DNA from: Blastomussa wellsi
Lineage: Eukaryota > Cnidaria > Anthozoa > Scleractinia > Plerogyridae
Length of the DNA stretch: 64,000 nucleotides
Direction: 5' to 3'
Assembly: GCA_947652115.1 (NCBI GenBank)
Contig: OX393563.1
Span: 8,963,942-9,027,941 of the forward strand
The translations under genes were made by a program, and so were the position numbers. The stretch's first letter is position 1. Every line of letters starts with the position of its first letter. This document shows, in pieces, positions 8,953 to 31,300 of this stretch. Under the pieces are notes generated by a model. That model worked only from the letters and a program-made list of their open reading frames with translations, did no database searches and was not told the origin of the DNA.

Positions 8953-11703
8953 ATGCGAGAACTTGATGTCAGTTCGACAATTTTTGTTTTGTTGCTTTCC
9001 TCGCATTTGGCCTATCAACAGGCGCTTCACAATTCAAGTGAAGTTAGCGTCTCCTCGGTAACTGATACCCTGCTCAACGCGACAACCGCACCTCCAACGG
9101 CAACGGCAGTACCGCCAGCCCAAGTGGCATACGTACCTGATATTTGCCCGCAGAAGTTTTCCTGTCGTAAAAGATGCGACAATGAAACATTCCAAGGAGA
9201 TGATCTTAATGAGGACGTTGCACATTGCCATTGTGATCAAGATTGTGTGAATTTCCAGGACTGCTGTGCAGACTTCGTGCGCTTTTGCGAACCAAACCCA
9301 GTGAATCAAGGTGTTCCAATGAGCCGGAATTTGAACTATTCCTGTGTAAAATTATCCACCGAGTCTGGTCAAGAAAAAGGCGTATTCATGATCACAACTT
9401 GTGCAGCTGATTGGAAAGGAGACGAGGATGTGCGCTTCAAATGTCTGGAAGGATCAAAGAATTCGAATCGGTCTTTCACTTCAAAAACCATCATAGAAGA
9501 TGTTCCAGTAAATAGCCTGATGCGAAATGACGGCACCCAATACAGAAATATTTACTGTGGTATTTGCAACAATGAACCTATCATTCTTCTACCTTCTTGG
9601 CAATTAAAGTTTCGATGCAATATCAAAGCTTCTCCGTCATACTACAACAACGAACAGAAACTAGACTTCTTTTTAAAGTATTGCCCGACGAGGATCCTGA
9701 AACCAAACAAACATTTTAAAATACGAACTTGTTTGCCAATGGTATCTACATGCTCAGTAGCCAATGAGCATGAAGATGGATGCAGGAAAGGAAAAAGTGG
9801 TCTGGTATACTCACAAACAACGACGAAAAACTACAGAAACTTGCAGTGCTTGCTTTGCAATGGTGTGCCATCAGAAACATCTCAATGTGGCCCTGAAGAC
9901 AACGGACAAATTTTCACTCCTAAGTCATTTGAAATTATCATGGAATTCACGGAGGAACACAACAACCAAGAGTTCCGAGAACCGAAACTCACTGCTGTGA
10001 TCACAACTTGTTCAACGGACAAAGTGTTCGACCCGCACTTGGAGACATGTGAAATAGGTTCTATAATAAATCCTTCTCGCCAGGCAGTTCGCGATACCTA
10101 TCGTATAAAATTCTGGATGCATACCTCGGATGACCATAATAGGCCAATAAGTTCAGAAGAATTTCACGATGCTGTTTGTGCACGCTTTGCTTTAGATCCC
10201 TCACAAATCGATGTCATTTCCATTGGAACAGAAGACAGTTCCACTGTCGTGGCTTTCAACCTTTACGCTGGGGCCAGGAAAACTGCTAAAAGGAATGGAG
10301 ATTATGAAACTCTGAACGTATCTGTTCTTCTAGATCTAAATTTTAACGAATCTTTTCAGATTGTAATTGCGAACAAGACCTGGATAGTCCTTAGAATCAC
10401 TCAAAGGCAGTTGTCCTGCGCACAGCCAGAAGAATTTGCTCCTGGAGAATTTCGTTTACTACCGACTGGTCAAGCTTTAATAAACGGTCCTGGAAACAAA
10501 ACTGCAAAATTACTTTCCCCTAAAATGTTCTTTGTCAAGCAAAACAACAATAGCAATGACTCCTTGATTGTGTGCAAATCTAAGTTTACCATTTTATGTC
10601 CATTTAACCTACTGATGATCAGTAGCTCTGAGTACACGATTGTAGCCAACGACAGCTTACTGCACACAACCACAGGTAGACTTTATACAACGGAAGAATA
10701 TAACGAGGTGGACGATCTCAAAAAGGCTTGGATTTGCACAAACTATACTAAAAATATTTACACTGAGACGAAAATAGAATCAGAAAGTACGTTTTTGCGA
10801 TACTTTACCATCGTTGGATTTTCTCTCTCAATTTGTACTCTCACTCTGACTTTGGTGATACACTGCATCTTCAGCGAGCTCCGAGGACCTCTACCAGGTA
10901 AAAATCTTATGAGTTTGTGCTTAGCCATTCTCCTTACCCAGTTTATGTGGCTGTTTGGTTCTGGAGATACCGACAAGCCTGTCTTTTGCACTATTATGGC
11001 GGTGGTTATCCAGTACCTTGTTCTGGTGTCGTTTGCGTGCACAGCCGTTATTGCCTTTGACACTCGTCGAACGTTCTCAAGTCAGATTTCCAAAGCCCCA
11101 GGTAGCTCTCTTGGCCAAAATCGAAAGGTGCGTTTTCTTTCCTACAGTTGCTTGGCATGGGGTGCTCCAGTGATATTTGTGATTGGTTGTGTCCTGCTTG
11201 ATCACTTTAAAGTGGTTTCCATCGGTTATGGTAACGACGTGGCCTGCTGGATTGCCAACAGCAACGCCAAGATCGTCATCTTCGCCACACCGATAGGTTG
11301 CGTTCTTCTGTACAACGTTACAGCTTTTTCTCATACAGTGTGGGCCATTAACAGCGCCAGGCAGCAAACTCGCCGAGTGAAATCTCCGCGACAGGACCAA
11401 CGAGGCGTCCTCAAAATATATTTGCGTCTTGTTTCCCTCATGGGCTTCACTTGGTTTTTCAGTTTCAGCGCAGAGCTCATTCATAAAGCGCTTGTCTACC
11501 CTTTCGTGATACTCACGAGTATTCAAGGAGTGTACATATTCGTGGCTTTCATCTGCAAAACCCGTGTGTTCAAGCTGATGAAGGAGCGGTTTTCAAGGTC
11601 CAGGAAAGATACACTAGCCTTCACTCAACACACTGCCAGCACGGAGTGCCGGAGCTTACCTCCCTCTTCGCCATATAGATCAGAAAGGGAAACACATATG
11701 TAA
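8953..11703 (+). CDS. Class-B-like 7TM receptor with N-terminal somatomedin-B-like domain
   Basis: A complete single-exon frame of 916 residues. A signal peptide covers roughly residues 1-22. A cysteine-dense module at about 65-112 (CxxxxxCxxxC...CxCxxxC......CC......C) resembles somatomedin B. A long ectodomain follows with regularly spaced cysteines and many N-glycosylation sequons. Seven hydrophobic segments lie at about 612-868. TM6 carries SLMGFTWFF and TM7 carries LTSIQGVYIFVAF, both typical of secretin/adhesion (class B) receptors, and the second extracellular loop has the conserved CW pair (VACWI). I see no GPS cleavage motif (HLS/T) before TM1, so it resembles GAIN-less, Methuselah-like receptors more than classic adhesion GPCRs. 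The tail of about 45 residues is basic and Ser-rich. The ligand is unknown. The start is chosen because it gives a proper signal peptide. Confidence 0.88.
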   Translation: MRELDVSSTIFVLLLSSHLAYQQALHNSSEVSVSSVTDTLLNATTAPPTATAVPPAQVAYVPDICPQKFSCRKRCDNETFQGDDLNEDVAHCHCDQDCVNFQDCCADFVRFCEPNPVNQGVPMSRNLNYSCVKLSTESGQEKGVFMITTCAADWKGDEDVRFKCLEGSKNSNRSFTSKTIIEDVPVNSLMRNDGTQYRNIYCGICNNEPIILLPSWQLKFRCNIKASPSYYNNEQKLDFFLKYCPTRILKPNKHFKIRTCLPMVSTCSVANEHEDGCRKGKSGLVYSQTTTKNYRNLQCLLCNGVPSETSQCGPEDNGQIFTPKSFEIIMEFTEEHNNQEFREPKLTAVITTCSTDKVFDPHLETCEIGSIINPSRQAVRDTYRIKFWMHTSDDHNRPISSEEFHDAVCARFALDPSQIDVISIGTEDSSTVVAFNLYAGARKTAKRNGDYETLNVSVLLDLNFNESFQIVIANKTWIVLRITQRQLSCAQPEEFAPGEFRLLPTGQALINGPGNKTAKLLSPKMFFVKQNNNSNDSLIVCKSKFTILCPFNLLMISSSEYTIVANDSLLHTTTGRLYTTEEYNEVDDLKKAWICTNYTKNIYTETKIESESTFLRYFTIVGFSLSICTLTLTLVIHCIFSELRGPLPGKNLMSLCLAILLTQFMWLFGSGDTDKPVFCTIMAVVIQYLVLVSFACTAVIAFDTRRTFSSQISKAPGSSLGQNRKVRFLSYSCLAWGAPVIFVIGCVLLDHFKVVSIGYGNDVACWIANSNAKIVIFATPIGCVLLYNVTAFSHTVWAINSARQQTRRVKSPRQDQRGVLKIYLRLVSLMGFTWFFSFSAELIHKALVYPFVILTSIQGVYIFVAFICKTRVFKLMKERFSRSRKDTLAFTQHTASTECRSLPPSSPYRSERETHM

Positions 11704-13503
11704 AAACTGCAATCACAAACTATCATTCCTGTGAATAGCATCAGGTCTGCACATCACACAGGACATTGCTTTATGATGCCAGCGTGATCTTGCTATTCGT
11801 CAAGTTGTTCACTGGAAAAACACTTCCGACAAAAATGTGACACATCCAAGCAGGAATAATCAGCTCCTGTTCATTACACAGGACAGTTTTTTTTTATTGT
11901 AGAGACTTAAAGTTGCTCTTTACATTTTCTGCATTTTGTGACATTCAGTTATAGGTTTGATTTATGGCACGATAAAAATACGTATTGTACCAGGGTGGTG
12001 TGTGACTGTTATTAGATAAGTGTAAAACTAAGTATCGAGATGTCAAAATTTAGTGGATATCCGCTGCTGATGCCTTGAGTATCGATTGTTTTATCAGTTG
12101 GTCTTAGGTTTACTTACACAAAAGAAAAGTCAATCCACCGACATTATAGAATAATTAGAAAGAAACGATTTGTTTATGATGTCTTCAAGAACGAAAATGG
12201 TAACGACGTAATATTCGGATAATATCATGCTACAAATAACAGCAGTTACTTTATATAGATACAATAAGAAATTCTTGCCAATATTCCAGTTTCTCTAATT
12301 AGAATTAATTATTAAGATAACCTTAAATTCGCAAGTAACAATTACCAACACCTATAAATTTGCCGCATTTGGCGGACGCATTTGCTTATCGACAAGACTC
12401 CTTGCTTTCCGTTGTATCAGTGTGTTCCCATATTGTCATGTACCTCGACTTCAGGTGCCTTGTAATCACCTGCGAAAGAAAGGCTGTTGCTAGGTTTAGA
12501 TGACATCAAAGTCGCATTTAATTTAATTACAAACTTTTGTTTAGCATAACCAAACTTGATTATGTACTCATTACTTGAAGAAGTTATAAACTTCAGCTGT
12601 TATAAAACATTAGCGGTTTACTGTTGACAGCTATGATACACACATTTTCCCACTTACATGAGTTATGGGCTGTTCGTATCATTATTTGTTAAACCATCCA
12701 ACTGCGATCAGCATATCCTAACGCAAAGTTGAATTGTTATATATTTGGAAGTTTCACCATAATGTTACTGGATCCGGAAACGCGCACTTGAAGTCCGATA
12801 TTTATCTGAGTATATAACTTACATGTAAATAGCGCCAGCTTATGTCGCGTCAGAGTAGAAAATTATCATATATGTCTAACTTGTGTACGCAATCTAAAAC
12901 TTAAGTATCAAACCAAGATCTAGCTTAGGGTTGCACGTGAAGGAATAAAAAGACCGTAATGCAATGTGGGTGTTGTAGACCGGATCAGGCAAGAACATTG
13001 GCATCTTGTTGGGACCAAAAGGTTGAGCCACGCCCGTATTGATCTCCTATAGGGCCTTCAAGGGACACTATCAACATTTTTGCATGATTTTGGAAGTCTA
13101 AAAAACATACATCGATCTTGGAAGCTGAATAATAATGGTTTTATTTCGTAGACCAGTATTCGTCAAATGATTAGAATAACCCATTTGGACACTGTCACGG
13201 AGATTTTTGCCTTCTTTGTTATGATAACTACCTTCGCCGATACAAGAAATACGCTTAGAACGTCAAGAGAAGATATCTTGTAATAGGGAAAACTGAAAAT
13301 AGTTTTTAGCTATTTTTTCAAGCCACAAGGGCAGAACCTGAAAAATTAAAGTAAGTCTGACTTCTTCAAACTGTGATCTGAATCTCCTAAATTTTCCGAC
13401 CAGCACCCCCGTTATTTAGGAGCCTGAGGAGCTTGCCTAACACTTGATTCAGTTTCATTTTTTACATTGGCTGAATATATTTCACTGCGGTTTCCCGGCT
13501 AAA
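11704..13503. other. 3' flank of the receptor gene, no other gene seen
   Basis: AT-rich sequence without coding signal. AATAAA at 12944-12949 could serve as a distal poly(A) signal for the receptor mRNA, but nothing ties it firmly to that transcript. Confidence 0.4.
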
Positions 13504-13713
13504 AAGGCCCTAGTTAGCCTCTTCCATTTTCGATGGCATCGAAGTTATGGAAATTGTATGATGAAGCGAAATATTATTTACATTGCTGTAAGTTATGTTA
13601 CTGGAAGTGTTTAATTACGAATTTAGCAAGTTTCTCAGTGATCTCTTTCATTTCGATACTAAATCCTCGCATGCAAACAACATACAACGAAGGTGTAGCT
13701 GACTAGGACCCTC
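13504..13713. mobile_element. MITE with AGGGCCCTAG-type ends
   Basis: The left end AAGGCCCTAGTTAGCC and right end GCTGACTAGGACCCT are diverged inverted repeats. The palindrome CGATGGCATCG inside is shared with a second copy at 43639-43760, which identifies the family. Confidence 0.5.
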
Positions 13714-14151
13714 TCAAAGGACCACACTCAACTGGCGTGCTTTGCGCGCTTTGTGGTTCCTGTCATCAGTCTGTGTCCAACTACTCGCAAAAGTTTAGAT
13801 TCAACGTGATTGTATTGTGAATTTGACCGATACCTAACATTCAGAAGAATTCACTGCTTATGTATCCATCAGAACTTCGCGAGAATATTCCTGGCCGAGA
13901 AATATATGTTATAATTTATTCCTTTTCAAGTAATTGTCCAGCCCACTTCGGCGACTTTTAACGTTTACTCAGATTTACCGCTCCATTGCAAGTGAAGTTT
14001 CCTTCGTACTGTGCATCGATTTTGCGTGAGAGCATCACCGTAATTTGCCTCTTGGCCGCGGAGACAAGAGGTACACTTTTCAAGCCATATAACCGGTAAC
14101 GCCGTACCAAAAAAGAAGGAACTCATAAACACCCCTCTTTGTTCCAACAAA

Positions 14152-14157
14152 ATTTTA
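14152..14157 (-). terminator. Poly(A) signal of the cysteine-rich gene, copy 1
   Basis: AATAAA is read on the minus strand about 375 nt past the stop codon. The paralogous stretch of copy 2 (near 19595-19607) reads CATAAA instead. Confidence 0.45.
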
Positions 14158-14529
14158 TTGCAAGGTTTTTCAAGTTAGGTGTTTACTTACAACGTACAAC
14201 TTATCAGTATTTGGAATCTTTAAGACAGAAAACCGCACAAATAAGTAATCTTACAGATTGCTTACAATGTTGCTAAGGAGTTCCTACTGTAATCACGTTT
14301 GCGGAGCAGAAGTCGACGTTAAAAATACAGTGGCTAATTCAAACGGTTACTAAGACTTAAAAAACAGAAGCCTTGTGGTTAAAACACAAGCTAATAAAGA
14401 AAGTAAAGTACAGTTAGCACGACTTTTTCTTTCTTATAATTTATGTGAACACAATTATTTAAGTAATACACACTTTTATCTCATTATATCTCTTCAGATA
14501 CAAGTCCAGGTGGAATGGGCATCAGCCGG

Positions 14530-15693
14530 TTACAAGGTGCCGGTCTCGAACCAGCCCGACACGCATTGTCCGGAGAGGAATTTAGCGCTCGCTATTTTCA
14601 CATCGTTGCCGAATTCGGGCGGGGCGGCGTATCCGTAACAGTAGCACAAACTGGAATATCCACCTTCGATCTGGGATGTGAAAGCAACGCAACCAGACCA
14701 TGGGCCCTTGCATTTCCTTTCGCATAGATTTCTGCATTCCATTTTCCTTTCAGAAGTTTCAAAACCCGTTGTCGTTGTCTGCGGCTCGTCGGTTTTAAAG
14801 CCAATAACGCCCGAAGGCATACCCCCAGTAGTATAGTAGTTAATATCAGTGGCTTCAGAGCACCTCTTTGAGGATCTGCATTGTCCTGACATGGAATGAA
14901 AGTAAACAAATCACACACAGCGACTGGTACTGAAGCTGAGATTCGTCATACTATTTTCAAAACCTACGGCCCGAATTTCTTTCACCATTAGCAATATATA
15001 ACGAACATTTCAATTATCCAACCCCACCACCCTTGAGAGAGAAGGGGAGTTCTGCCAAGGGATCAATCTGCTTCGCACTTTGTTGGGGTGTTGCATTGTC
15101 CTTGAATCGAATAAAATTTATAAGCTGTCTACAGCGACATACAATCGATTTCAAACTAAAACATTGCCCCCACCTCTACCCCACCAGACAAGATATAATG
15201 ACCATACCAGTCATCCTCCTCCCCACCCACCCGCCCTTGAGCAAGAATGGCTATTCTGACGAATGGCCAATTGTACCCCCTGACAAGTGCCGAAGAGTTA
15301 ATCCGTGACGTACGAGTAACTTCATCCCGCAGAATGAGAATTTCAAATAGATCATCAAATAGGATTTCCCTAAACGGTTTTTTTCGTCAAGTAAAAAGCA
15401 CTCGATTAATTTATCCTTACTACTTTAATCAATTTCGATTGATAAAAATTAATTTAATTTGATAATTTGATTTCTCATTGCTTCCGAATCTCCGAGTGTC
15501 CCCTTTGTCAATACTCTTAGATTGGCTAATTGTTTTTCCGCTTTAAAGCAAAATCGCGGATGGATTTTACTTTTTATTTTATCATCTAAGTTTCTTCTTA
15601 TTTTGAAATAATTTTAAGAAAGTTAGTAGTCTTACCAATTGTCCCAATGGACAGCAAAAGTAGAGTAGCGAGAATGAATCCACTCTGAGCCAT
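14530..15693 (-). CDS. Secreted cysteine-rich protein, copy 1 (two exons, intact)
   Basis: Exon 1 (15693 down to 15636) encodes MAQSGFILATLLLLSIGTIG, a textbook signal peptide, and ends at G|gtaag. Exon 2 (14885 down to 14530) follows a 750-bp intron after ttccatgtcag and joins in phase 1. The product has 137 residues. The mature part of about 118 residues has nine cysteines; the core CRNLCERKC....GC.......C.C is reminiscent of PAN/apple-like folds, but I cannot assign a family. A diverged second copy lies about 6 kb away on the same strand. No basic processing sites typical of peptide precursors stand out. It is a secreted protein of unknown function; homology to known small cysteine-rich coral proteins is possible but unproven. 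Confidence 0.75.
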
Positions 15694-16350
15694 GTTTCAG
15701 CGTTTGGTTGGGTATCCTGTGGAGATTTATGTCAGCTCGTCAGAGAGGTTTTTTTGACAAGCAATTTTTTATTCAGAAATCGAACATTTTCTATCTGGTT
15801 TTCTTGAATTTATTTCGGTAAAGTTAATTTACTTATGTGTGGATAAATACAGAAAACGAATGTCAAGGTCTTTTTAAAAGTTAAAAGACGCAAAGGTCGA
15901 AAGTTCCTTTCATACAAATGCCTTATTTATGCTGTCAAGTTTACTAAGAATTCATGAACATATAAATTTGTAATGAACTAGATAATTTACTTGTGCGATG
16001 TCTGTTTGCGTCAAATGAAAAAAATGCCTTATCATGTTTAATTTAGCAAGATGAGAGGAATTAGTGAAACAGTTTAAAAGCGGTTGTCAATTCACACCCC
16101 CAACACCGAGACAAGTGTTTTCTTTTTTAAACAAAGGAGAATGTCGTATTTTGCCTCTGTCATTATGATCATTTTGTCCAAACTAATGAGCATTTGCCCA
16201 ATCTCGACCACTTTTTTTTCAGAAACAAATTACCGCGAGGCGATGTATGGTGGCTAAAGTATGTTATACTGAAATGCTAACCGTGTACCGATGACTTTGA
16301 ATAAGCTTGAACGAAATTAAAATTTGGTATTTTAAAATCGCTGATGAAGT
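15694..16350. other. Upstream region of cysteine-rich copy 1
   Basis: No coding signal. The sequence next to the start (GGGTATCC or its variant, up to the ATG) is shared with the damaged copy at about 22980-23015. Confidence 0.4.
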
Positions 16351-16485
16351 GGTTCTGTCCTGGTGTACCGGTACGCAAAGGGAATAACCATTGTATTTTC
16401 TTTGTTTAGGGGTCATTGGTTAGCTGTTGTGTATTGTTTGGTCTTTGGTATCGGCTCTTGTGAACCGGTACACAAGGACAGAACC
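16351..16485. mobile_element. hAT-type MITE with 8-bp target duplication
   Basis: Inverted ends GGTTCTGTCCTGGTGTACCG and GGTACACAAGGACAGAACC enclose 135 bp. The 8-bp direct repeat GATGAAGT lies immediately outside both ends (16343-16350 and 16486-16493). An 8-bp duplication is the hallmark of hAT transposition. Confidence 0.8.
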
Positions 16486-16562
16486 GATGAAGTCGACGGT
16501 TATGAAGCGCCCTCTGTCCCTCTTCCTGGAAAATTGTTGTATATGCTTGTCGACGTGAGAAT

Positions 16563-18826
16563 ATGAAAAGATAAATTATATGCATATATTTGTTTGCCCG
16601 AACACCGCTTCTATGATTTCTCGAGCTTATTGTTGCTACCAAATTTTAAAAGTTTTCAAATCAGTATGGATCGTTGTTCGAAAGCCATCCATGCGCTATC
16701 AAGACGAAAAATGCTGCAACCTTAATTCGCCTTCGTTAGTACACTGGTTCAAAATTAATAATCTGTTGTAAATTTTAGAATGAGCGATTGAAGTAGTAAG
16801 GACCTGACCTAAGGCCGGTTCTACTGCAATCGAGAAATTTAATTCATAACGCCCAAGTTGTGAAACCCAAGGCCTAAGCAAATTCCAGCTGTATGCAGCG
16901 AATTATGAAAGCAGTTCTTCAGTTTAAGGATAAATGTGACAAGCTAAGAATATAAACTCGTGATGTGCGTTCTTTGTGAAGAGTTCTTTGCAGTGCAGGG
17001 AGTGGCAATCGTATCGACAAAGTTGACTGTTTTCTGAAACTTTTGAAAGAACTGCCCAGGCGCCACATGGAAATTCATAGGAATACTTACTGAAACACGA
17101 AATATAATAAGTGAAGTGAAGACTTGGAAATATTTCATTTTGGAGCTTACCTTTAGGAAAACTGGAGCTTCGACGTGTTCACACTTCAAGGTGCACAAGC
17201 AAACTAATTTGCCTTGCGTTATTCGCTCGCTTTAAAGAAGAGTTAATCCCTTTAAAACTTGGATGAAATTCCAGCCTTTGTTTTCCTTTCAGTCAGGGCT
17301 ATCATAGTTATGAGGAGAAATTCTTTATGATGCAAATGTACGTTTATACATAAGAGGATTCAAGGTCCAGTGAAGTAGTGAGATAACGTTTAGCATAAAC
17401 CGGTAAATACTGTAGTACAAAGGCGCATTACACATCTCTTGTTAAATACAAGTGCGTCGTTCAGACAAAACTTTTTGTCGGTTGAACAAAATATGGATTA
17501 GCCATGCCAGTGTACATTTGCGCAACAACTCTGCCAAATTTGCTGATGGCATGCAATCGAAAAGTAAAGGCTTTTATTATATAGACAACAGTGAAATAAC
17601 GGGTGAGCTTTAACACGAAAACATGATTTCTTCACACGTGACCTACCTTGTTTTGGGCAAAAGAAAAATTACAATTTCAGTTGTTCTTGTAGTCGAGCCG
17701 AACGCAGTCGTGCGTCACCTCGAGCACGGCGTTGAAAGTTGTTTGTTGTATATGAGAACTTTTACATCGCGTTTTTTTGCGTAAAAGTACTGTGTCTGCA
17801 ACTTTATCCTCAGTGAAACAGATCAAATATCTATAAAAATAATGAGATCTAAGAAATATCACTATTTACATGGTAGTAATAGTACTACTCAGAAAGCAAA
17901 TTATAGGTGAGTTGGACAGTTCGTTCACGAAAGCATCCTCAAGTACTTAGATCTAAGGTCGTTTTTAAATTAGCTCCAAAGTCAAAGTGTTCTGTCCATT
18001 AAAAAATTCAACTGAGTTAACATTTTAAGACACGAAGAACGAGGTAAACTGTAAATTTACTAGCGGTAATAATTGATTTAATTCCTGGGCAATAATAAGT
18101 CTAGACCTTTTATTCGTTGAACAAAAGATGGATAAGTCAGTCCATTTACGGTCCTTCTCTAAATAGTTTTTTCAGCATAGAAATGATATGATTTATAATA
18201 TTTTCAGCGTCGTTTTTTATTTTGCTTACTGCATGACTTCAGTTGGTTGAGCTACTCACTTAGGGGTGAGGGCTTGAAAGCATATATATATAATCTTTCT
18301 TCTGGACAAATCAGTAAAACTAACAAGCTAGCATAGTTTGCAGCTTGGTTATTCAATCGACGCTTATTAAAAGAATAGAAGACTCGCCTCGCCAATAACT
18401 GATTAGGCCGCTTTTCTTTCTGCGTAAGCAAAAGGACCATTCTAACCGGGCTGGCACGGTCGTCATGTCAGTCGCGAAGTTGATTTTTGTTACGTCTAAC
18501 AGACGTGCCGAGATCTCGGCAATCTGAAGACCCGGCTAACCCGGCGAACCAGCGCGGCCATGCAATCAGGCCTGGGACAAGATCAAGACTTCGTCTTTAT
18601 GTGAATGATTGTGCGAATGCGTTTTATGACAACTTGCTTACCAACAACACATTGTACGGCAAAGAATTGGTCTGCAAGCGCGAGAGATTTTTTCATTTTA
18701 ATTGAGAACAATCCCAAAAACAAGAACAAACAACTTGTCTAGGCGGGGACACGTTTTGTCAAAGGAGACAAAACTTCAAAAGAGCCGATGTCCTGCCGAT
18801 ACAGGACAATCTGCATTCCCATGCAC
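16563..18826. other. Intergenic, no confident gene
   Basis: Nothing firmly coding. A minus-strand frame beginning near 17138 (MKYFQVFTSLIIFRVSVSIP, about 64 codons to 16944) starts like a signal peptide but has no partner exon that I can find. Confidence 0.35.
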
Positions 18827-18827
18827 C

Positions 18828-19082
18828 TTGGGCGCTTTCCATTCGCCCAAAATTCCTGAAATTAGGGAACCAGAACGAATGGATTTTGGAAAGTTAATTC
18901 AGAGTATAGTCATAAATAGCAACTCTTATACACTTGGCAACGAAAACTTCACCTCAATTCCCTCTATTTGACCTGTTTCTCTAAGAACCCGATAATGTTT
19001 TCCGAAGCTCGCTGAGGTTTAGACTTCGAGAAATTTTCTGAAATTAAAACCGGAATTTTTGGTCTAATGGAAAGCGCCCCTT
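18828..19082. mobile_element. MITE with GGGCGCTTTCCATT ends
   Basis: TTGGGCGCTTTCCATT at the left pairs with AATGGAAAGCGCCCCTT at the right, across about 255 bp with no coding capacity. Confidence 0.6.
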
Positions 19083-19854
19083 GTGACTCCAGGAAAGAAT
19101 AGGTTATTGATTGGCCATGATCATGTTCTGACTCTAGAAAACACTATTGGCTATTTTGTTTTTTCTAAGAATTTAGACGCGGTCTTAAGCTCCAAGAACA
19201 GATGCATAGTGGTAAAGAAAACTCAACTCGCCTGCATGTAAGCCTAACGCCAGGTGAATTTGATTGTAAAAGTCGAAAAACGTAGTTAATGGAATTTATT
19301 AAAATGCATTCTACGAAAGGTTCCTAAAAAAATACGGAGGCTGAGTTGAATACTGCGACAAAATGGAATCTGCCGAAAAGTTATCTCCGAACAGAGCAAG
19401 CAGCTTTTGGGTGTTTCTGTGTGTACCGTATGTAAATGTATCACAATGTTTATCTTTGTTCGTGATTCTTTGTAATTTCAGGCAGCATTGTTTCTCATCA
19501 GTCTTTGGGCCATGGTACTGCTATCGCCGTAGATCTATCGATCGGGGAGCAAACCCAGATATATATATATAACAACAACAAAACTTGGTTCCAACATAGT
19601 TTTATGTCACTCGAGGTCTTTTAGTTGTACAATACTCAGAAAGGTTACAAATAAAACTATAATTTACTTATAATGCGCAACTAATCAAGTATTCGAATAC
19701 TTTAGGTTGGATAATAACTGGATAACAACCGCTTACTGTCTGCTAAGGAGTTCCTACTTAAACCACGGTTGCGGAACTAAAGTCGATATGAACATATTAA
19801 AACACCTGGAAATTAACTAATATAAGCTAGTTCCAATGGTTTATAAATTAATTA

Positions 19855-19858
19855 ATAG

Positions 19859-19903
<45 letters not shown>

Positions 19904-20099
19904 GTATAACAATATAATTTGGTTTTATCAACTGGGTTGATAATGTGAATTGGCCACCGTAAGGAGATTCAAGAGCTGACATTTCGAGCGTTAGCCCTTC
20001 GTCGGAGCGAACGTCGGAGCTAACGGTCGAAACGTCAGCTCTTGAATCTCTTTACGGTGGCCAATTCACATTATCAAACCAGTTGATAAAAGCAAATTA
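19855..20099. mobile_element. Foldback retroelement-like repeat, copy A (13-bp target duplication)
   Basis: Long inverted arms share ATCAACTGGGTTGATAATG and TTGGCCACCGTAA. The 13-bp direct repeat TATAAATTAATTA flanks the element (19842-19854, 20100-20112). On the minus strand, 20010 down to 19974 holds CCGACGA, GGGC-loop-GCTC, GAAA and GTC in the order of a hammerhead ribozyme core. Hammerhead motifs and TSDs of this length fit Penelope-like elements better than cut-and-paste DNA transposons. Confidence 0.6.
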
Positions 20100-21166
20100 T
20101 ATAAATTAATTAGCCTCGCGGTTACAACACCATTTAGTGAATAAAGTCTGAACTGAGTAAACTACTGTTGGGTTTTATTGTGGGTTTTCTTCTAACTGAA
20201 AAACCGGCACAAATAGACTACAAAATAAGGGTTCTCTCCTCTTCAAAACAGTTACATGAAATCTATGGTGCAAAAGACCTGGTTCTATTTCAAGCAAGAC
20301 TTTCTTTCCAATACATGAATGCGACTGTTTAAGCAAACTCGCTGCAACCTAATTATATTTTCAGAGCGTCACTTCAGCCGCAAGTTCAGGAGGACTGGAC
20401 AAGAGCCGGTTAGAAGGTGTCGGTCTCGAACCAGCCTGAGACGCATTTTCCGGAGAGGAATTTAGCGCTCGATACTCCGACATCGCTGCCGAATTCCGGC
20501 GGGGCGCCGTATCCGTAACAGTAGCACAAACTGGAATATCCACCTTCGATCTCGGATGTGAAAGCAACGCAACCAGACCATGAACCCTTACATTTTCTTT
20601 CGCATAGATATCTGCATTCTTCTTTCCGTTCTGAAGTTTCAAAACCCGTTGTCGTTGTCTGCGGCTCATTCGTTCTAAATTCAATTTTGCCCGAAGGCAT
20701 ACCCCCAGTTGCATAGTATTTTATGTCAGCGGCTTCAGAGCACCTCTTTGAGAAAATGCATTGTCCTGGAATTGATGGAAAGTAAACAATGATCACACAC
20801 AGATCCATCATACTATTTTCAAATTAAAACTTAAACACCAACCCCCTCCTCCACCTGACAATATGTAACGACCAATGCAATCCTCCCACCCCACCACCCT
20901 TGAGAGAGAAGTGTAATTCTGGCGAGTGACTAGCAAGTGCCAAATAACCAGTCTTTGATATATGAGTAAACCATCATTATTATGATGATATTACCAAAAT
21001 AAGATTTTTTCAAATCGTTACAACCTAATTCTAAAGTACTTGAATGATTGTTTTTCTTTTTTCTTGTTGTTCTAATTGAAATTAAATAGAAATTAAAATA
21101 GTATATTCACAAGGGTAAAAGGAGTAAAAATATAAATTTTAAAACCGAACTTTTTAGTTTCGACGT

Positions 21167-21320
21167 AGCCTGCATAGCAGGTGGTTTTTGTGGGGGGAAT
21201 GCTTCGAAAACAGCGACTTTTTTCCTCTCCCCAGTGTTCGCGCGCTGGAAATGGTGGCCGGTCTTTCGTGATCGCCGTTTTCGAATCATTCCCCCACAAA
21301 AACCGCCTGCTTTGCAGGCT
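21167..21320. mobile_element. Mutator-like palindromic MITE with 11-bp target duplication
   Basis: Arms AGCCTGCATAGCAGG and CCTGCTTTGCAGGCT, extended by GTTTTTGTGGGGG-type text, form a hairpin of about 154 bp. The direct repeat AGTTTCGACGT lies immediately on both sides (21156-21166, 21321-21331). A 9-11-bp duplication is typical of Mutator-like elements. Confidence 0.75.
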
Positions 21321-21340
21321 AGTTTCGACGTGTTGTTGGT

Positions 21341-21403
21341 TCATTCCTCGCTCCGGGATTTTTCTCCGGGTTCCCCGGTTTTCCTCCCTCCAAATAAACC
21401 AAC
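21341..21403 (+). repeat. SINE body fragment
   Basis: The text 'tttttctccgggttcc..ggttttcctcc' matches the body of the SINE at 491-700. It is cut by the foldback element that starts at 21417. Confidence 0.5.
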
Positions 21404-21416
21404 ATTTTAAAATTCA

Positions 21417-21417
21417 G

Positions 21418-21457
<40 letters not shown>

Positions 21458-21639
21458 CGGAAGTATAAAAATATAATTTGGTTTTATCAACTGGGTTGAT
21501 AATGTCAATTGGCCACCGTAAAGAGATTCAAGAGCTGACGTTTAGAGCGTTAGCCCTTCGTCGGAGCGAAGGGCTAAGGCTTGAATCTCTTTACGGTGGC
21601 CAATTGACATTATCAACCCAGTTGATAAAACCAAATTAT
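21417..21639. mobile_element. Foldback retroelement-like repeat, copy B (13-bp target duplication)
   Basis: Same family and same termini as copy A (GAGGGGGTAAGTTTC at the left, ACCAAATTAT at the right). The 13-bp repeat ATTTTAAAATTCA flanks it (21404-21416, 21640-21652). The hammerhead-like core on the minus strand is damaged (GAAA replaced by TAAA). Confidence 0.65.
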
Positions 21640-23159
21640 ATTTTAAAATTCAATTGGATCTGGATAAAGGACCCGCATGAAAACCAGCTGCTGATGTGAC
21701 TTCCTCTCGAAATATCGTTGTTTATTATTTTATTTACTATGCATGGTTTAATTTTCGAAAGGAGCAATTGTGAAACATTGTAATTGATTGTTTATTCAAA
21801 GCTGGACTCTTTAGTTGGATAATGAGTCCCTCAAGGTAACCTGCTGGTTACGAGTTGTGGCAGGTTTCGAGTGCTTAGTTATTCTTTTTTAAGTATGTTT
21901 CAATCATATACAGAATTTTGAATGCGTTAGCATTAAACCGGTATACAACAGCCGGAAAATTGCTACTGCTTTTGCCCGAATCCTGTGCGTTTTGCCAGAA
22001 AAATGGCAAAATAGGCTCGCACGCCTATGGTTTCAATTATCTTGTGGCAAAACAGACATATCAAACGTTTTAACTTAGCTTCAAGGGCAATAACCTTCAT
22101 AAGCCTCGCGTCATCTGCGAAGGCTGCTCATTTGGAGAAAACAATGTGGAAAACTATGTGCGAAATTTTGAATTGCGGATAACTGAACACTCGAATGAAT
22201 TAAATTAAAATTAAGTAATTAACTTTATAATGTTTGCGCCACAAAAGTGTAGACAGAGAGGTGTGAAATTATTCTTAAAGGATTAGAACTTTATGTTTAG
22301 CACAGTATTCGTTGAATTTAAATCACTAATAATGACTTCTAACTATTAGGCGTCGTTTTTTTTTTGTTTATGTGTGTGTTTGCTGTAAGGTCTGTTCTAT
22401 GTCAAAATATTTTCTAGAAATGGAAATGAAGCGTTATTTAGTACTGTAATATACCTTGTAATGTATTGTGACACAATGTATTAAATAAAAAAAATAATAA
22501 TTGTTGCTGAGTGTCTCCCTTTTAACCCGGGCTAATTTCTTATTCTTTTCCGGGCCAAACTACCATGATTTAGTTTGTTAATATTTTTTGCATTGTTTGA
22601 AAGAACGTTCAATCTTTATTTTCAATCAATCTTTATTTCATTTTCACCTAATCCTAATTACAAATTTGGAACAAAAAAAATATAATTGAGAAGCTACGTC
22701 ACGGTATGTGCATTTTGAAAAATAAGCTTAATTTTTTCAAAATCGTCATTTGTAATCCGTTTCAATCTTTTCCATCCTTAACCATACTTGTTCCTTTTTG
22801 GTTTAGTATCACCTCATTGGTGTTTTTCTTCCTTAGTAAACTATTAGTTTCAGGTTTATCACGTTTTAGGGCAATTTGGTTAGTCGTAAAAAATGACACA
22901 GAATACTCAGCTCCTTTAAGGATGGGGTATCCCCAACAGTCTTACCAGTAGTCACAATCGACAGCAGTAGGAGGTGAATGAGAATCAATCCACTCTGATT
23001 CTAGTTGGGCATCCTGTGAAAAGAGAGAGGCATGTTCCCAGTGAGTTGTGTTGACAGGTAATTATTTCTTTTTTTTTTTTTCAGAAATCAATCATTTGTC
23101 ATCCGGGTGTGATTGGAGTAAATTAAATGACTATATGTAGATAAATGAACTAAAGAAAG

Positions 23160-23345
23160 CACATTCCAAGGTCGGCATATGCGCAGTACTCTGGAGAACG
23201 TGAACCTGACTGCTAAATTTCTGTTTTTCTGTTTGAAAATAAACGCCGTCCTTATTTTCTACAAGAGCTAGTACTACGTTTGAAAGCGATAGATGCACCG
23301 AATACATCAAGGCACAATTGTACGAGATGTGTAATCTCAACCATC
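23160..23345. repeat. Partial copy of the 53794-54160 element
   Basis: Shares long blocks with the intronic element at 53.8-54.2 kb (AAAATAAACGCCGTCC, ACGTTTGAAAGCGATAGATG) but lacks its terminal repeats. Confidence 0.55.
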
Positions 23346-23350
23346 GTTCC

Positions 23351-23453
23351 TGGGAAAACCCCACCCACTCCACCCCTAGCCCATGTTTCTCAGTAACTTG
23401 TGGCTTTAGTGAAGAAACATGGGCTAGGGGTGGGGTGGCTGAGGGTTTTCCCA
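23351..23453. repeat. GC-rich hairpin
   Basis: TGGGAAAACCCCACCCACTC and CCCTAGCCCATGTTTCT pair with AGAAACATGGGCTAGGGG and GGTTTTCCCA around a loop of about 20 nt. It is a perfect-looking foldback of unknown origin. Confidence 0.65.
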
Positions 23454-24339
23454 GAAACTAATTGATCCGATAAGCCTCCCCAATGCGTGCGCACATTTAA
23501 TTCTTTTCTTTCTTTTCCCGGTATAAGCATTATTGACCCTCCCCACCCCCATTTGGCTAATCTCCCCCAGCTAAATAACGACCGTTCCCTAATTAGTGAA
23601 TTGCCGCTTTTATTTTTCTTTGTTGTCTGCCTCATTTCATCGTTAAAATCGTTTGTAAGATATCTTTAGTGCTTGACTTGGGTTTCTAATAGATGTGAAT
23701 ATAACAGACAACTGTCGAGTGGTCTCAAGTTTCGCAGTAGTCACGTAAAATATGTGGGACTCTAAGCTGGCCTGGTTATGTGGTCTTTTTCCTCAAATAT
23801 CTGCCCTGCAAACAGGGTTGAAATTCGCCATCGGGGCCGTGGCAAGGGGATGGGCCGGGGGACCCCGTGCCCTCTTTTTTGTCAAAAACACTCACCAATG
23901 AGAAGTTTAAAATTTAAAATTAAATTTTGTCTTCCCGACATTTTAAACAATAACGATATATCAATAGTTCTGACAGCTGACAGGAGAACATTTGCCGGTA
24001 TCAAGATAGACAACCCCCACCCCCCACCCCCTGCTCCTTAGGGCTTGCTACGGCCATGGCCAAAAAATCATGCCCTTGGATAGGTTATATTCTAAAGTAT
24101 TTTCCGCATAAGCTAAGATAAGATAAGATGGTACTTTCCGAGTACAAAATCCTTGAATCTGCCGTTGTGCTGGGCAGTCGTCTTCTATTAAACCCTAATG
24201 CAACTGACAAAAGATAGTTTCCTGATCTGAGTGTAAAGAAACCACTTTCGACCTACACGTTGTTATGGAAAGTCGTTGTTTTCAGGCTAATTAAAACTGT
24301 AAGATCATTGTAAAACTGAAAAATAAAACGCGAACGTGT

Positions 24340-24764
24340 GAAACGAAAGTGAAAAATAATTCCCCAGGAAGAAAGCGTTCCGAAAGTGTCAAGGCTTCGT
24401 GATGATGCGACCACTTACATTTTACTTCCGCTTAATTTCAAGAATTAAATATTGTTTGACAGTGGTCCTTAGAACGATATTCATTGTCGGAAAGCATTTG
24501 CCACTGGTATAGTGGGCTATACCTTTTAAGATACTTTGTGGAGTTATAATTTCTGTAATTTATAAAAAAAACCGTGATGTACAGTTGAGAACAAATTTGG
24601 TAAACATACAAAATCACATGTTCCACTTGGATCGGAAGTGGAAATTGACTAAATCGTCATAAACTGAACAAAAACTATCCACTTTATATTGCCTGTACCT
24701 AAAATGCTTAATTATAGCTTGTGAACCTCCTCTGTTTAATTATTGATATATACGAAAGAGAAAC
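24340..24764 (+). promoter_or_regulatory. Two ISRE/IRF-like motifs upstream of RNF213
   Basis: GAAACGAAAGTGAAAA (24340-24355) and CGAAAGAGAAAC (24753-24764) both contain the GAAANNGAAA core bound by IRF proteins in animals. They lie 0.5-0.9 kb upstream of the RNF213 start codon. Vertebrate RNF213 is interferon-inducible; function here is inferred. Confidence 0.4.
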
Positions 24765-24804
24765 AACAATGGTCAACATTTGACAAAATCCACTTCCGCT
24801 CTAA

Positions 24805-25064
24805 TTCCAAGAATCTGGAGTCCCCAGGTGTCACAGTAAAAACATTTCTCGGAAATTTTGCTGCTCTTGAGGTCTTTCATTGACACCCGAAGAAATTTAC
24901 CCGCTGGACCACCTAAACTAAACTTCTGAGCATTCCCAAATTAATATAATACATGACTTTCATTTCCATTCGTTAATGTGTAGCAGCAAAGTGCACGGTC
25001 TGGGGAATCCAGAATAACGAAATCTACTTCCGCCTGCGGATCACTTTCTCGGAATTTCCAAGAA
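24805..25064. promoter_or_regulatory. Four STAT (GAS)-like TTCNNNGAA sites
   Basis: TTCCAAGAA at 24805 and 25056 and TTCTCGGAA at 24846 and 25046, the last two pairs almost abutting. Each is a palindromic TTCN3GAA site, and four in 260 bp is far above the random expectation of about one per 4 kb. All lie within 470 bp of the RNF213 ATG. Confidence 0.4.
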
Positions 25065-25084
25065 TCCCCGAGGCAGCGTCGACA

Positions 25085-25094
25085 TATATATATA
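25085..25094 (+). promoter_or_regulatory. TATA-like box of RNF213
   Basis: TATATATATA lies 174 nt upstream of the ATG at 25268. It could be a core-promoter TATA element or a short dinucleotide repeat. Confidence 0.3.
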
Positions 25095-25267
25095 GCGGTT
25101 CGTGGAATTTATCCACCACTTAGTGGAAAACACCTCAGCTCATGTGATGCTATGGCTTTTTAATTTCCGACGAAATATCGACGGCTAAAGGACGTATGTA
25201 CTCAGTCTATACAAAGATTATTTTGTAGACTGAAAATGTAGCTTTTCAAAAGGAGTTGGCGTTTATA

Positions 25268-25328
25268 ATGAAGTGCCCCGCTTGCGGAAACGACGAACTC
25301 CAAGAGCGTCATCGCTTCTGCTGTAATT
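25268..25328 (+). CDS. RNF213: RNF213 exon 1, left part: zinc-ribbon N-terminus
   Basis: The frame begins MKCPACG and continues to RFCCN, then meets TAG (25328-25330), whose last two bases belong to the inserted element. Cysteines at 3, 6 and 18 match the CxxC...CxxC zinc ribbon at the start of vertebrate RNF213, where the ligands are also 3, 6, 18 and 21 (recalled, not searched). Base 25328 is the first base of the Cys21 codon, which is completed at 26478-26479 beyond the transposon. Confidence 0.8.
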
Positions 25329-28300
25329 AGGGACCTTAAGATACTGGACGCGGCGGACTTTAAGAACGCGGTCACGTCCGAGAGGGCATGGGTCGCGACC
25401 GCCACCTTTGCGCGGGAAATACGAGCCTTAAGATTTACGTTGTGCAAGCGGTCGCCGAAACACATAACAACAAACGGATTCAATCAAAGAATCACTGGAA
25501 TCAGACGGTTTTGCTGTTATGACGTCGTTTAAGAAGACCCGAGAGCTTCTAGCAGGATCTTATTTGGCTGACATCATTTCTGACGAAGAATTCGTGGTCC
25601 TCTATGACTGCAGCTTTTCGAAAAACTTAGAGTTACCGTATGAAGAGTACGAAAGATTTGACCTCGAAGAAATGGCAGATTCGGAGTGTAGAGCAGAGTT
25701 CCGTGTTAATAAACGCGATCTACCGCATTTAGCAGAGCGTTTACAAATACCTGATGCTTTTGTATGTAACCAGGGCTCCGTTTGTGAGGGTATGGAAGCT
25801 ACCTGTATGCTACTTCGAAGGCTTTCATACCCTTGCAGGCAACAAAACCTCCCGAGCGAGAGCAATGTCGTGGTTGTTTGACCGTTCCATTGCCATACTA
25901 AAGGAAGAGAAAGTAGAATTTCAATCAAATCTTTTGCGCCACTTTTATCAAAACAATCGTATTAAAAACACGAGTCGAAGAAAAATGACGCAAACAGGCA
26001 AAATTATATAAATAATGCAAAATCAGTTACTAAAGCGGTCCTAAACTGCCACTGATTAATTTTACACGACAAAAATCAAGGTTCAAATTAGAAATAAAGC
26101 AATACGCAGCAAGGAAATTTTACCCAAATTTACCTGCTTCTCGGATTCCTTCTGAAGACTTGACGCTCTCACAATAACCCTCTATATGCTCGGTAAGACT
26201 GAATTTTGAAAACAAAAATGAACCAGACAGTTTAGGAATCTATTTTCTTATAATAATGTTTGCAAATTTTGGGCAAGACTTGTTAATTCAATGGAAAATT
26301 TCGGAAAAATAACTCACCTTTCTGAGAGGCCGCCAAAATAAACTTCGTCGCCGCCACAACTGAGGTGGAGGCCGTCAAGTGGCGTGACATTTATGCAAAT
26401 TAAAACTAAGACCTTGCGGATTTACTTCCGGTTGCCGTCGTCCTAGGCCGCGTCCAGGGTATCTTAAGGTCCCTATTGTGGTTGTAGTCTTGCTGGAGTT
26501 AAATCTGCAAGAGAAACGATAACAGGTCCACCAAACACTTCCCAGCAGGCACCATCTGCGAAGTCGTCTCACGCTGCAGGTTAGTTGTAGAATTTTGCAG
26601 AATATGCGTAGAAAAGATCAACAACGATTAAGGTGATTGTTGTCTTCGCGGTCGCTAGTGATCAAATAGGTGGCGTATGACTAGAAAATGTTCGACTTAA
26701 GAATTAGAACTGCATGCATGTACAGTTTTCGAACACCAAACAGCACGCGCTATACGCTGCGAGTGACCTGCAATCGTAGCCATGTCTAATTTGTACTGAA
26801 AATAAAATTTGATTTTCTTCCTCCACCGGACAACCTTATAGTTTTAAAAGCGGAGAAATTAATTCCTGTTCTATTCTATTTCTATTTTGGATAAGAGGAT
26901 CATGTATGTTACGAATAAGTGACTGTGTCAAAAGTAGTTGGGGTTCTGCGTTGAAGGCTTAGAAAAATTAAACTAAATTTAAATTTGTGGATGAACTTTA
27001 TTTTCAATTTCACATACGCGTTATAAACGTTCGTATCGTTTTCGTGCACTTTACGGCGGATGATTTGGGTCATCATCTAAAGCGAACTCTAAAACGACGC
27101 TATGATCGCAAATTGCACTAATTTTGGGTATCTTTTTGGGAACTGTGCAGCTGATCTTCGTTCAGAGCAGTTTTGCAATTTTATACAAGGTGTTGAACTT
27201 AGTTCACTGCCATCAGATTTTAGTCTTAAAATTCTTACGGTAATAACAGCATTCAAGGAAATATGACCGAAGTTTTGTCTTAAACTGCTCACCTGAGGCA
27301 GGAATGAGAACTTTTCATTAGGCTTTAAATGTTTTCCATTTTAAAAATACAAATACACACATTTCTGAGAGATTTTGGGGGGCTAAGCCTCCCACAACTG
27401 CCACTGAATTATTATAAGTTAATATATATGAGCATTCTACTTTAATGTACTCAACAAGAAAACGGACCTCCTAATCATACCTTCCAGATACAAGTGAACG
27501 TGATTTCTTTCTTGCTTATTTCGAAGAATTATTCTTTTACTTGATCGCTTAATTTAATCAACAATATTGCAAGGTAAAAAGCTGAGAAAGAACAAAGTGA
27601 TGGAAAAGATTGTTAAATGAAACGATTCAGAGTTGCTACACCCCGTGTTTGGGATATGTTTACGAAGCTTCTCTTCACGGTATTTTTTCATGTTACCTCG
27701 GTCCTATATGTTTATTTACATTTCTATCACTCTGAAAGTCTGAGGGGGGCATCTCACTTCCATGCACTTGCTCTTAAAGGGACACAGTCAGCTGATGCAC
27801 AGGATGAGCAAAAGCACACTCAAAAACAGTAAACATGTTGAAAATCGAGCGAAACACTGAGAGTATTGAAGCGGATTTTTAGATGTACTCGACGCGTATC
27901 TTTGCTTTCAGGTTGAGGTAAACTTTTTTCAAAGTAACCAAATACCAAATAAGTAATTCTTGATCGCTCTGTTAACATTTTCACACATGCGTGGCTCTCT
28001 TGGACATGAGGTTTCTACTTAACCTTAATGTCATTAAGGGAAAAAATGATTTTAAAATTGTTTCAACAGAAACTTTGTTTCCAAAGCAGGTAACCAGACC
28101 TCGCCTACTGAGAACAACGATGGTGACCAAAGAAGCTGTCCTGGGAGTGAAAGCCTGCCTCTCGACAAATCAGAAATTCAGGGAGACAGATCCATTGCAG
28201 GAAGTCTTTCAAATCCAGAAATAACCAGTGAGGGACAGAAAGGCGATAATGAACCTACGGAAGTGAAGAAAAATGCATTTCATTGCTATGAACGAGGGCA

Positions 28301-31300
28301 GCGAGATGCAAAGGGGGGACAGAAAGACAAGAAAGATATCAAAAAGGAAGAACAAATAAGACAGGAAGGACAGAAAGGACAAAAAGATGATGACAAAAAG
28401 GAACATAAAAGACAGGAAGATGCCAAGGAGGGAGAGAAAGAACGGGAAGATTCCAAGAAGGGACAGAAAGAACGGGAAGATTCCAAGGAGAGACAGAAAG
28501 AATCGGGAGATTCCAAGGAGGGACAGAAAGGGTGCGAGGATGCAAGGGAAGGACAGAAAGGAGAGAAAGATGCTAAGAATGGACTTACAGGAAGAAAAGA
28601 CGCTAACGAAGGACAGGAAGATGTCAAAGATGAACATAAAGAGCGGAAAGATGCCAATAATGCACAGAATGGACAGGAAGATGCTAACGAATCACAGAAA
28701 GGTGTCAAAGATGGACAGAAAGGACAAGGAGGTACCAAGGATGGACAGAAAGGAGGGGAAGATGCCACAGATGGACAGAAAGGAGGGGAAGATCCCAAAG
28801 ATGGACAGAAAGGAAGGGAAGATGTCAAGGATGGAGAGAAAGGACGGGAAGATGCCAATGATGGACAGAAACGAAGGGAAGATGCCAAAGATGGACAGAA
28901 AGGAGGGGAAGATACCAAAGATGGACAGAAAGGAAGGGAAGATGCCAAAGATGGACAGAAAGGAGGGGAAGATACCGAAGATGGACAGAAAGGAAGGGAA
29001 GATGCCAAGGATGGACAGAAAGGAGGGGAAGATGGCAAAAATGCACAGAAAGGAAGGGAAGGTGGCAAGGATGAACAGAAAGGAAGGGAAGATGGCAAGA
29101 ATGGACAGAAAGGAAGGGAAGATGCCAAGGATGGACAGAAAGGAGGGGAAGATGCCAAGGATGGACAGAAAGGAGGGGAAGATGCCAAGGATGGACAGAA
29201 AGGAGGGGAAGATGGCAAGGATGGACAGAAAGGAGGGGAAGATGGCAAGGATGGACAGAAAGGAGGGGAAGATGGCAAGGATGGACAGAAAGGAGGGGAA
29301 GATGGCAAGGGTGGACAGAAAGGAAGGGAAGATGCCAAGGATGGACAGAAAGGAGGGGAAGATGGCAAGGATGGACAGAAAGGAAGGGAAGATGCCAAAG
29401 ATGAACAGAAAGGAAGGGAAGGTGCCAAGGATGGACAGAAAGGAGGGGAAGATGGCAAGGATGGACAGAAAGGAGGGGAAGATGGCAAGGATGGACAGAA
29501 AGGAGGGGAAGTTGGCAAGGATGGACAGAAAGGAGGGGAAGATGGCAAGGATGGACAGAAAGGAGGGGAAGATGGCAAGGATGGACAGAAAGGAAGGGAA
29601 GATGCCAAAGATGAACAGAAAGGAAGGGAAGGTGCCAAGGATGGACAGAAAGGAGGGGAAGATGGCAAGGATGGACAGAAAGGAGGGGAAGATGGCAAGG
29701 ATGGACAGAAAGGAGGGGAAGTTGGCAAGGATGGACAGAAAGGAGGGGAAGATGGCAAGGATGAACAGAAAGCAGGGGAAGATGGCAAGGATGAAGAGAA
29801 AGGACAAAACGATTCTACGGTGAAACAAACGGTAGAGGACGATGCTAAGAAAGAACAGGAAGATACCAAGGTTACTGTCTTCTTCCATGCACTGATGACA
29901 CCGACTTTCCAGTTTGCTCAAAGCCAAGGTTACAGAATTTTCATTCGTGGATCTCGTCCCTTTACGTGGGGCGAAGACAATCAAGTTCCCGTCCGCATTG
30001 TAAGGTATGTTTCTACATAAGAAATGAAGCAAAAGTATGTAAAAATATTTTTATCTACTTTTGTCTTATATTTTAGGGAAGTTTTCGATGGCTACTTCGA
30101 ATTAGAAGGCAGTACAAAAATGACTCTGCAACAGGCTTCAAGACAGATTTCTTATAAATACGTTGTACTACGCCCCCAAAGTAATAGCAAGCAACCAAGG
30201 AACTTATGGGAGTGTCTCCTCGGTTTTAAACCTGTTTTCAGTGGCCATGTGAACCGCTGCCTTAATATTCGCGATGATTCTTTAAAAAGCAATGGTAAGA
30301 TAAAATGCTGGTTTTCATTGTGATCTCATTCGTAATTGCTATTACACCTCCATCTTCGTGTCACATTCATAACAGCCCTGTCGCTCTACAATCAACGCCT
30401 TCATCTTCATAATCAAATAGTGACAATTAACGATGTTTCTTAATTTGACTAAAATTTGTGAAAAATTTAGGCTTTCTGAAATGACGCCATATTGATACAC
30501 AATACCGTATTGTATGAATTGGTAGTCTCATCCATTTAATGCAGGGCTGTCGTAGTTACATATATCTGTTCAAACATGAGAAAGGAACAGATTGTGACAA
30601 AACTCTTGGAAGATGTAATTTCATCAAAAGAATGAAGATGCGACTTCAAGCTTACGATCGTGAACAAACCAAGAATAAAACTAACACGACTGAGAAGAGA
30701 CTGGATAAATAAGACGAGAACCAATCATTGAGAAATTGCACGACAGTATAGTAGTGACCAATCAGGGCTTCTTTTGTTCCTTCCAAAGTTATTATTTGGA
30801 TGCTAACTCATGCTCCTCCATCAATTTGAATTAAAAACTCCCGCATAACAACCACATGCAACTTAGTTGCCGGAACAAATTGTCATTTAAACTAGCCTTT
30901 GGAGGCAAAAGTTTATACCGTTAGGAGATTCAGAGATGTAGTGTTATGAGGCCCAATTAAAAAGAGAACTACGTATACAACGAATGGAATTAACTGAAAT
31001 GAATCTGAAACTCCAAAAAGAATCAGGCATTCCTTATACCCTAAACAATTTAGTTGGATCGTATATGGTTAAAGCAGCACTTTAAACAACAAAATGTTCG
31101 ACAAAATTAGTTAAAATAGTTAAAATAAGTAATATGTAAATATATTTCACTAACAGTGATAGAACTAATTAATATAGTGAAAGTTAAAGTTATATTCAAA
31201 AAACAAAAACAAACAGTGGCCTTTGCATTGACATTGAGTTATAGGTATCGATCACCCAAGTTTTGTTGTCTTTTTGCCGGGAAGAGTCTTTCTTGCTCGG

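Follow-up and report, generated by a model that had tools for sequence, protein, structure and literature searches.

RNF213 (mysterin) is a giant AAA+ E3 ubiquitin ligase, and the function of its extreme N-terminus is poorly known. Residues 1-398 are called unstructured and unresolved in one study (PMC12440826). In another, truncated forms were compared in human cells: RNF213 without residues 1-367 still reached Salmonella and Listeria but was partially impaired at Toxoplasma vacuoles, and the protein without residues 1-586 showed no recruitment and gave bright structures in cells (PMC11549300). In cnidarians, RNF213 is listed with the effectors that are induced in an immune-cell state activated by poly(I:C) (PMC13319465).

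The other system of interest here is that of the PIF/Harbinger transposons and their internally deleted derivatives, with which the element described below shares 3-bp duplications, inverted ends and, in its long copies, the DDE_Tnp_4 domain; the long copies also have a second open frame on the opposite strand. A TWA duplication is typical of the plant members of this group, whereas the duplications found here are of the form A-N-T. Insertion alleles of host genes, for example those made by the active rice MITEs mPing and mJing, have in common with the present case cut-and-paste movement, target duplication and an altered gene, but the host here is an animal and the gene has sister loci that keep the interrupted exon. 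The kind of mutation is familiar, and the interest lies in the gene, in the exact codon and in the contrast with the sister loci; no report of RNF213 with a transposon insertion was found in the open-licence literature.

The window, that is, the whole stretch of 64,000 nucleotides that was analysed, contains a gene sharing with RNF213 the C-x2-C-x11-C-x2-C ribbon exon, the AAA+ core and the RZ finger, as well as a CBM20-like domain (by eye against human RNF213). It differs from RNF213 as described in a long 10-residue repeat array in exon 2 and in that no RING pattern was found. The disruption of this one coral RNF213 gene by a young Harbinger derivative is well supported; the full reading, namely that a Harbinger element moved recently into codon 21 of RNF213 exon 1 and that the allele makes no ribbon-bearing RNF213, is given a probability of about 0.88.

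The RNF213 gene and its interrupted first exon

At 8956-11700, the window holds one open frame of 915 residues for a receptor with a somatomedin-B part and a secretin-family seven-helix part, 81% identical to an Oculina patagonica protein and 61% and 55% identical to Stylophora and Porites proteins, respectively; from these identities the host is a stony coral close to Oculina. The gene of interest lies downstream and, on its sequence, is unambiguously RNF213. The spliced product of our own simple gene model returned one protein, Porites P0054, and part of P0054, used as a query, found 49 proteins, itself among them, of which the majority are named RNF213. Over the extended locus, 4347 of the 4835 residues of P0054 and 4167 of the 4209 residues of the Oculina rnf213-alpha-like protein P0055 were covered, a near-full coverage that upholds the identity proposed in the earlier note. 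The same note had described the remaining 44 exons as undamaged. With respect to damage this stands, as none of the 37 stops inside the alignments to P0054 and P0055 (16 and 21, respectively) falls within a model exon, but 44 is not the exon count of the gene, which runs past the window. Homology supports 40/42 model exons in the window and 66/73 over the extended locus, but the model is not complete: 14 alignment rows over the two queries have no model exon, and the exons that it lacks include those of the RZ finger near 78 kb.

Exon 2 (28090-30004, + strand) encodes a linker, a tandem-repeat domain and the start of the CBM20-like domain, and its 3' part is homologous to P0054. The repeat at 28415-29804 comprises 46.9 copies of a 30-bp unit coding for a DGQKGGEDGK-like 10-residue unit, an array that was not found in the available N-terminal part of P0054 (a partial protein). 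Further exons of the gene model follow at 30077-63337 (+) in the window, and the homology continues beyond it to a last alignment ending at 87,942 on the window scale. A PDB search with one exon gave no match. Pieces of the RZ finger pattern are present at 77431 (CPSGHRYFVGD) and 78007 (CGRPDETRDCPWC), and the RZ region at 78007-78373 was aligned to both P0054 and P0055. Neither the gene model nor P0054-P0058 yielded a RING pattern, and a DNA scan of the three + frames of 58001-90000 found none. Because an intron-split RING would escape that scan, and because it found no RING in the second locus either, absence from genomic frames alone is a weak sign. The pattern is present in P0059, P0060, P0063 and P0068. 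Montipora P0059 and Nematostella P0060 contain both RING and RZ finger, and P0054-P0058 keep the RZ finger without a RING pattern; judged from these sequences, the RING may have been lost in one group of coral RNF213 proteins.

The first exon is in two parts. The left part (25268-25328, +), preceded by an in-frame stop at 25226, runs from the ATG to the insertion point and codes MKCPACGNDELQERHRFCCN. Cys3, Cys6 and Cys18 are encoded ahead of the element, and the frame ends after 20 translated residues at a TAG (25328-25330) made up of the last base of the duplicated ATT and the first two bases of the element. The right part (26477-26579, +) opens with TGT, coding for the fourth ligand, Cys21, which is followed by Gly, and reaches a phase-1 donor at 26580 (+; CAG/GTTAGT). 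When the flanks are joined with one ATT, the 1,149 bp removed are a multiple of three, and the resulting exon of 163 nt (54 codons plus 1) ends in phase 1 at the same donor and encodes MKCPACGNDELQERHRFCCNCGCSLAGVK..., with Cys at 3, 6, 18 and 21; the insertion point is within the codon of Cys21 (codon 21). On re-reading of the frame and repeats and on joining of the flanks, two earlier observations were therefore confirmed: that an ATG frame with three cysteines is stopped by TAG at a 1,146-bp element, and that it resumes beyond the element with Cys21-Gly towards a donor in the phase that exon 2 needs. The Pfam Zn_ribbon_3 model matched exon 1 weakly, below its curated cut-off (E 0.0048). The left and right exon flanks have one match each in the assembly, which holds one version of the locus and in which an uninterrupted second haplotype was not found.

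The inserted element and its age

The insertion (25329-26474, +) is a non-autonomous Harbinger element of 1,146 bp, an internal-deletion derivative of copies of about 2.9 kb. Its terminal inverted repeats of 16 bp, at 25329-25344 (+; AGGGACCTTAAGATAC) and 26459-26474 (+), match perfectly (16/16), and a comparison of the flanks at lengths 1 to 11 showed agreement at length 3 only, identifying ATT at 25326-25328 and 26475-26477 (both +) as the target-site duplication. Element positions 1-511 and 513-1146 correspond to the ends of the long copies, and a remnant of the transposase frame, open in those copies, is found at 25468-25839 (+), where the internal deletion (element positions 511-513) interrupts it. 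On its sense strand the element also carries AATAAA three times (25708, 26093 and 26337, +; span 25708-26342); by consensus only, these are possible sites of premature polyadenylation.

In the genome, 26 match rows to the element are listed, including the window copy, some copies being represented by two rows. At least three copies (window, C22 and C12) are of the 1.1-kb form, and the form from which the window copy derives by internal deletion has itself spread. The six long copies, which were pieced together, comprise five of 2,909-2,914 bp and one of 3,454 bp, and in each of them the transposase frame is split in two, while the opposite strand has an open frame of 238 aa. The second transposase piece matched DDE_Tnp_4 (E 3.2e-13, 50.1 bits; cut-off 24.8), the first fell below the cut-off (E 0.0019), and the 238-aa protein had no Pfam match, being Myb-like by eye only. 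Nine copies could be compared end to end (window, C22, C12 and the six long ones, a further long copy, on C8, being left out), and matched 3-bp duplications were found in eight of them, the exception being C9, a long copy (5/6 long copies matched). The duplications are of the form A-N-T (ATT, AAT, ACT), and in the eight matched copies T precedes the left end and A follows the right end. The DDE_Tnp_4 domain of the long copies, the matched inverted ends and the 3-bp duplications agree with the earlier assignment to Harbinger; the eight matched copies out of nine, together with the 26 listed rows, argue that the insertion structure is not due to chance.

The window copy and the C22 copy have 0 differences in 1146 positions, which sets a 95% upper bound of about 0.26% (3/1146) on their divergence, and the C12 copy differs by a 4-bp gap only, so that the window copy is without any base of its own against these two. 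The same 5 sites separate all three short copies from 6/6 long copies, and, taken one by one, the long copies are 7 to 11 differences away from the window copy over 1145 sites. Because of this near-identity to other copies, the jump looks young, in line with the event having been called young before. Copy identity strictly dates the split of the copies, and the insertion could be somewhat older if the window copy was the source; the small distance to the long copies bounds its age even in that case.

Ribbon exons in relatives and at sister loci

The ribbon is not universal among RNF213-like proteins. Within the first 400 residues, the ribbon pattern is present in 17 of the 49 retrieved proteins and was not found in the other 32. 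The first Cys is at residue 3 in 16 of the 17, from fish, amphioxus and one bivalve; six of these have the exact spacing seen in the window and ten are one residue shorter. Nematostella P0060 has a related N-terminal cysteine motif with another spacing (by eye). The ribbon exon was not found in the six coral proteins P0054-P0059, of which P0054 is marked partial and the others start elsewhere, so that some corals may normally do without a ribbon at the start.

Searching the genome with the joined exon 1 peptide (E up to 10) returned the two halves in the window and two weak matches (E 0.05 and 0.39). These are at positions where, on the same contig, the opening exons of two other RNF213 loci should lie: C4:9141437-9141529(-) (MQCPSCGNTDLSPKYKFCPEC) precedes AAA+ exons at 9.094 Mb by about 47 kb, and C4:10140561-10140656(+) (MKCSHCNNTALGENHAYCYECG) precedes those at 10.194 Mb by about 54 kb. 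Both exons are intact, with Cys at 3, 6, 18 and 21 and a good-looking phase-1 donor (donors by eye), and Pfam ribbon models matched them below cut-off (0.00053 and, for DZR, 0.0015). Despite the weak E-values they can be tied to RNF213, since position, spacing and phase agree. The RNF213 gene at C4:9.07-9.13 Mb is supported by 43 alignments with coral and Nematostella queries, covering 3201 of the 4835 residues of P0054, and the third locus by AAA+ matches and one N-terminal exon match. The intact ribbon exons at these two loci are the best proof that the interrupted exon is the true exon 1, and the joined flanks, the two sister exons and the 16 of 49 proteins with Cys at residue 3 bear out the proposal of an ancestral zinc-ribbon exon 1 of the same spacing. 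A further RNF213-like AAA+ match (C1:11745270-11745575), 45% identical to the window's gene, is contained in one open frame of 4233 residues and is possibly an intron-poor or retrocopied relative.

The retention of ribbon, spacing and donor phase at two other loci weighs against the suggestion that the true first exon is elsewhere, the interrupted exon being unused and its insertion neutral. This suggestion can draw on the coral models P0055-P0059, which have a start other than the ribbon exon, and on five frames at 11701-28000 that run from an ATG to a phase-1 donor. The reverse strand of that region, however, contains eight such frames, so that five is at chance level, and on this comparison of five candidates with eight on the control strand the 16 kb upstream were rejected as the site of another first exon; no further exon 1 copy was present among the best genome candidates. 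Taken together, a first exon elsewhere is considered quite improbable. It is also conceivable that the interrupted exon is used and the element bypassed, by splicing from a cryptic donor at 25323 to the exon 2 acceptor, which would take out the element together with what follows of exon 1 and would give a full-length RNF213 with only three correctly placed ribbon cysteines. The donor in question (GTAATT, 25323-25328, +; context GCT/GTAATT) is weak and in phase 1, so that a splice to exon 2 keeps the frame: the 25323 to 28090 junction translates as MKCPACGNDELQERHRFCC-NQTSP... (...RFCC-NQTSP...), with codon 19 rebuilt as Cys, and the same hexamer serves as donor for one other model exon (41769), in a better context. 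Its score of -2.15 is nevertheless lower than that of the weakest model donor (-1.20 of 60, or -1.97 in a longer list, with approximate score tables), and of the 4448 GT sites at 11701-88000 as many as 22% reach such a score, making the bypass unlikely.

The allele may also be rare or heterozygous, or somatic in the sequenced colony, without effect on the species. The near-identity of the element copies, indicative of recent activity, and the fact that the view rests on one assembly both favour this, and its chances are judged to be about even; it is compatible with the main reading of a recent Harbinger insertion into codon 21.

Probable consequences for the protein and the host

Under the main reading, transcripts from the native promoter would yield a 20-residue peptide followed by a stop, or would end early inside the element. 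The allele would make no ribbon-bearing RNF213, and any remaining protein would come from a later start or from splicing around the element. The next in-frame ATG, given as 29895 in the earlier note, is indeed at 29895-29897 (+), after the repeat domain, and is the single in-frame one in exon 2 up to there. A start at this position would skip the ribbon and the repeat domain and would remove part of the first CBM20-like strand (by eye, from 'VTVFFHALM'); as 83 out-of-frame ATGs precede it in exon 2, efficient initiation there is unlikely. A TAA at 26465-26467, within the right inverted repeat and in the exon frame (frame by eye), rules out that translation runs on from the element into the right-hand part of exon 1. 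Splicing the element out within exon 1 is unlikely, with the three GT sites on the left scoring -3.30, -7.16 and -2.15; nine AG sites lie between 26475 and 26580, and the only one to combine phase 1 with a positive score is the exon's own end.

The earlier term 'knock-out' may be apt in so far as the native start gives 20 residues, but its scope is narrower than the word implies, as it concerns one of about four loci, two sisters of which keep the ribbon exon. With these ribbon exons intact, the loss need not be total, and the sister loci may cover for it. If protein is still made, the lack of the ribbon by itself may have a mild effect, and the larger risk may be that no protein is made from the allele.

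A bypass splice or precise excision could soften the loss. According to a study of mPing in yeast, elements of this type 'generally excise precisely', with help from the target duplication (PMC4561436). Precise excision would leave exon 1 as it was before the insertion, and with intact-looking long copies in the genome such a reversion is conceivable. It is highly doubtful that the locus acts as a reversible immune-gene switch, in which excision with the long-copy transposase would produce ribbon-plus and ribbon-minus mosaics and the minus state would be near-full-length via the 25323-28090 splice. As it stands, the locus is a case in which a conserved immune gene has been changed by a young transposon, and a ribbon-minus coral locus beside ribbon-plus loci is a natural contrast for the role of the ribbon.
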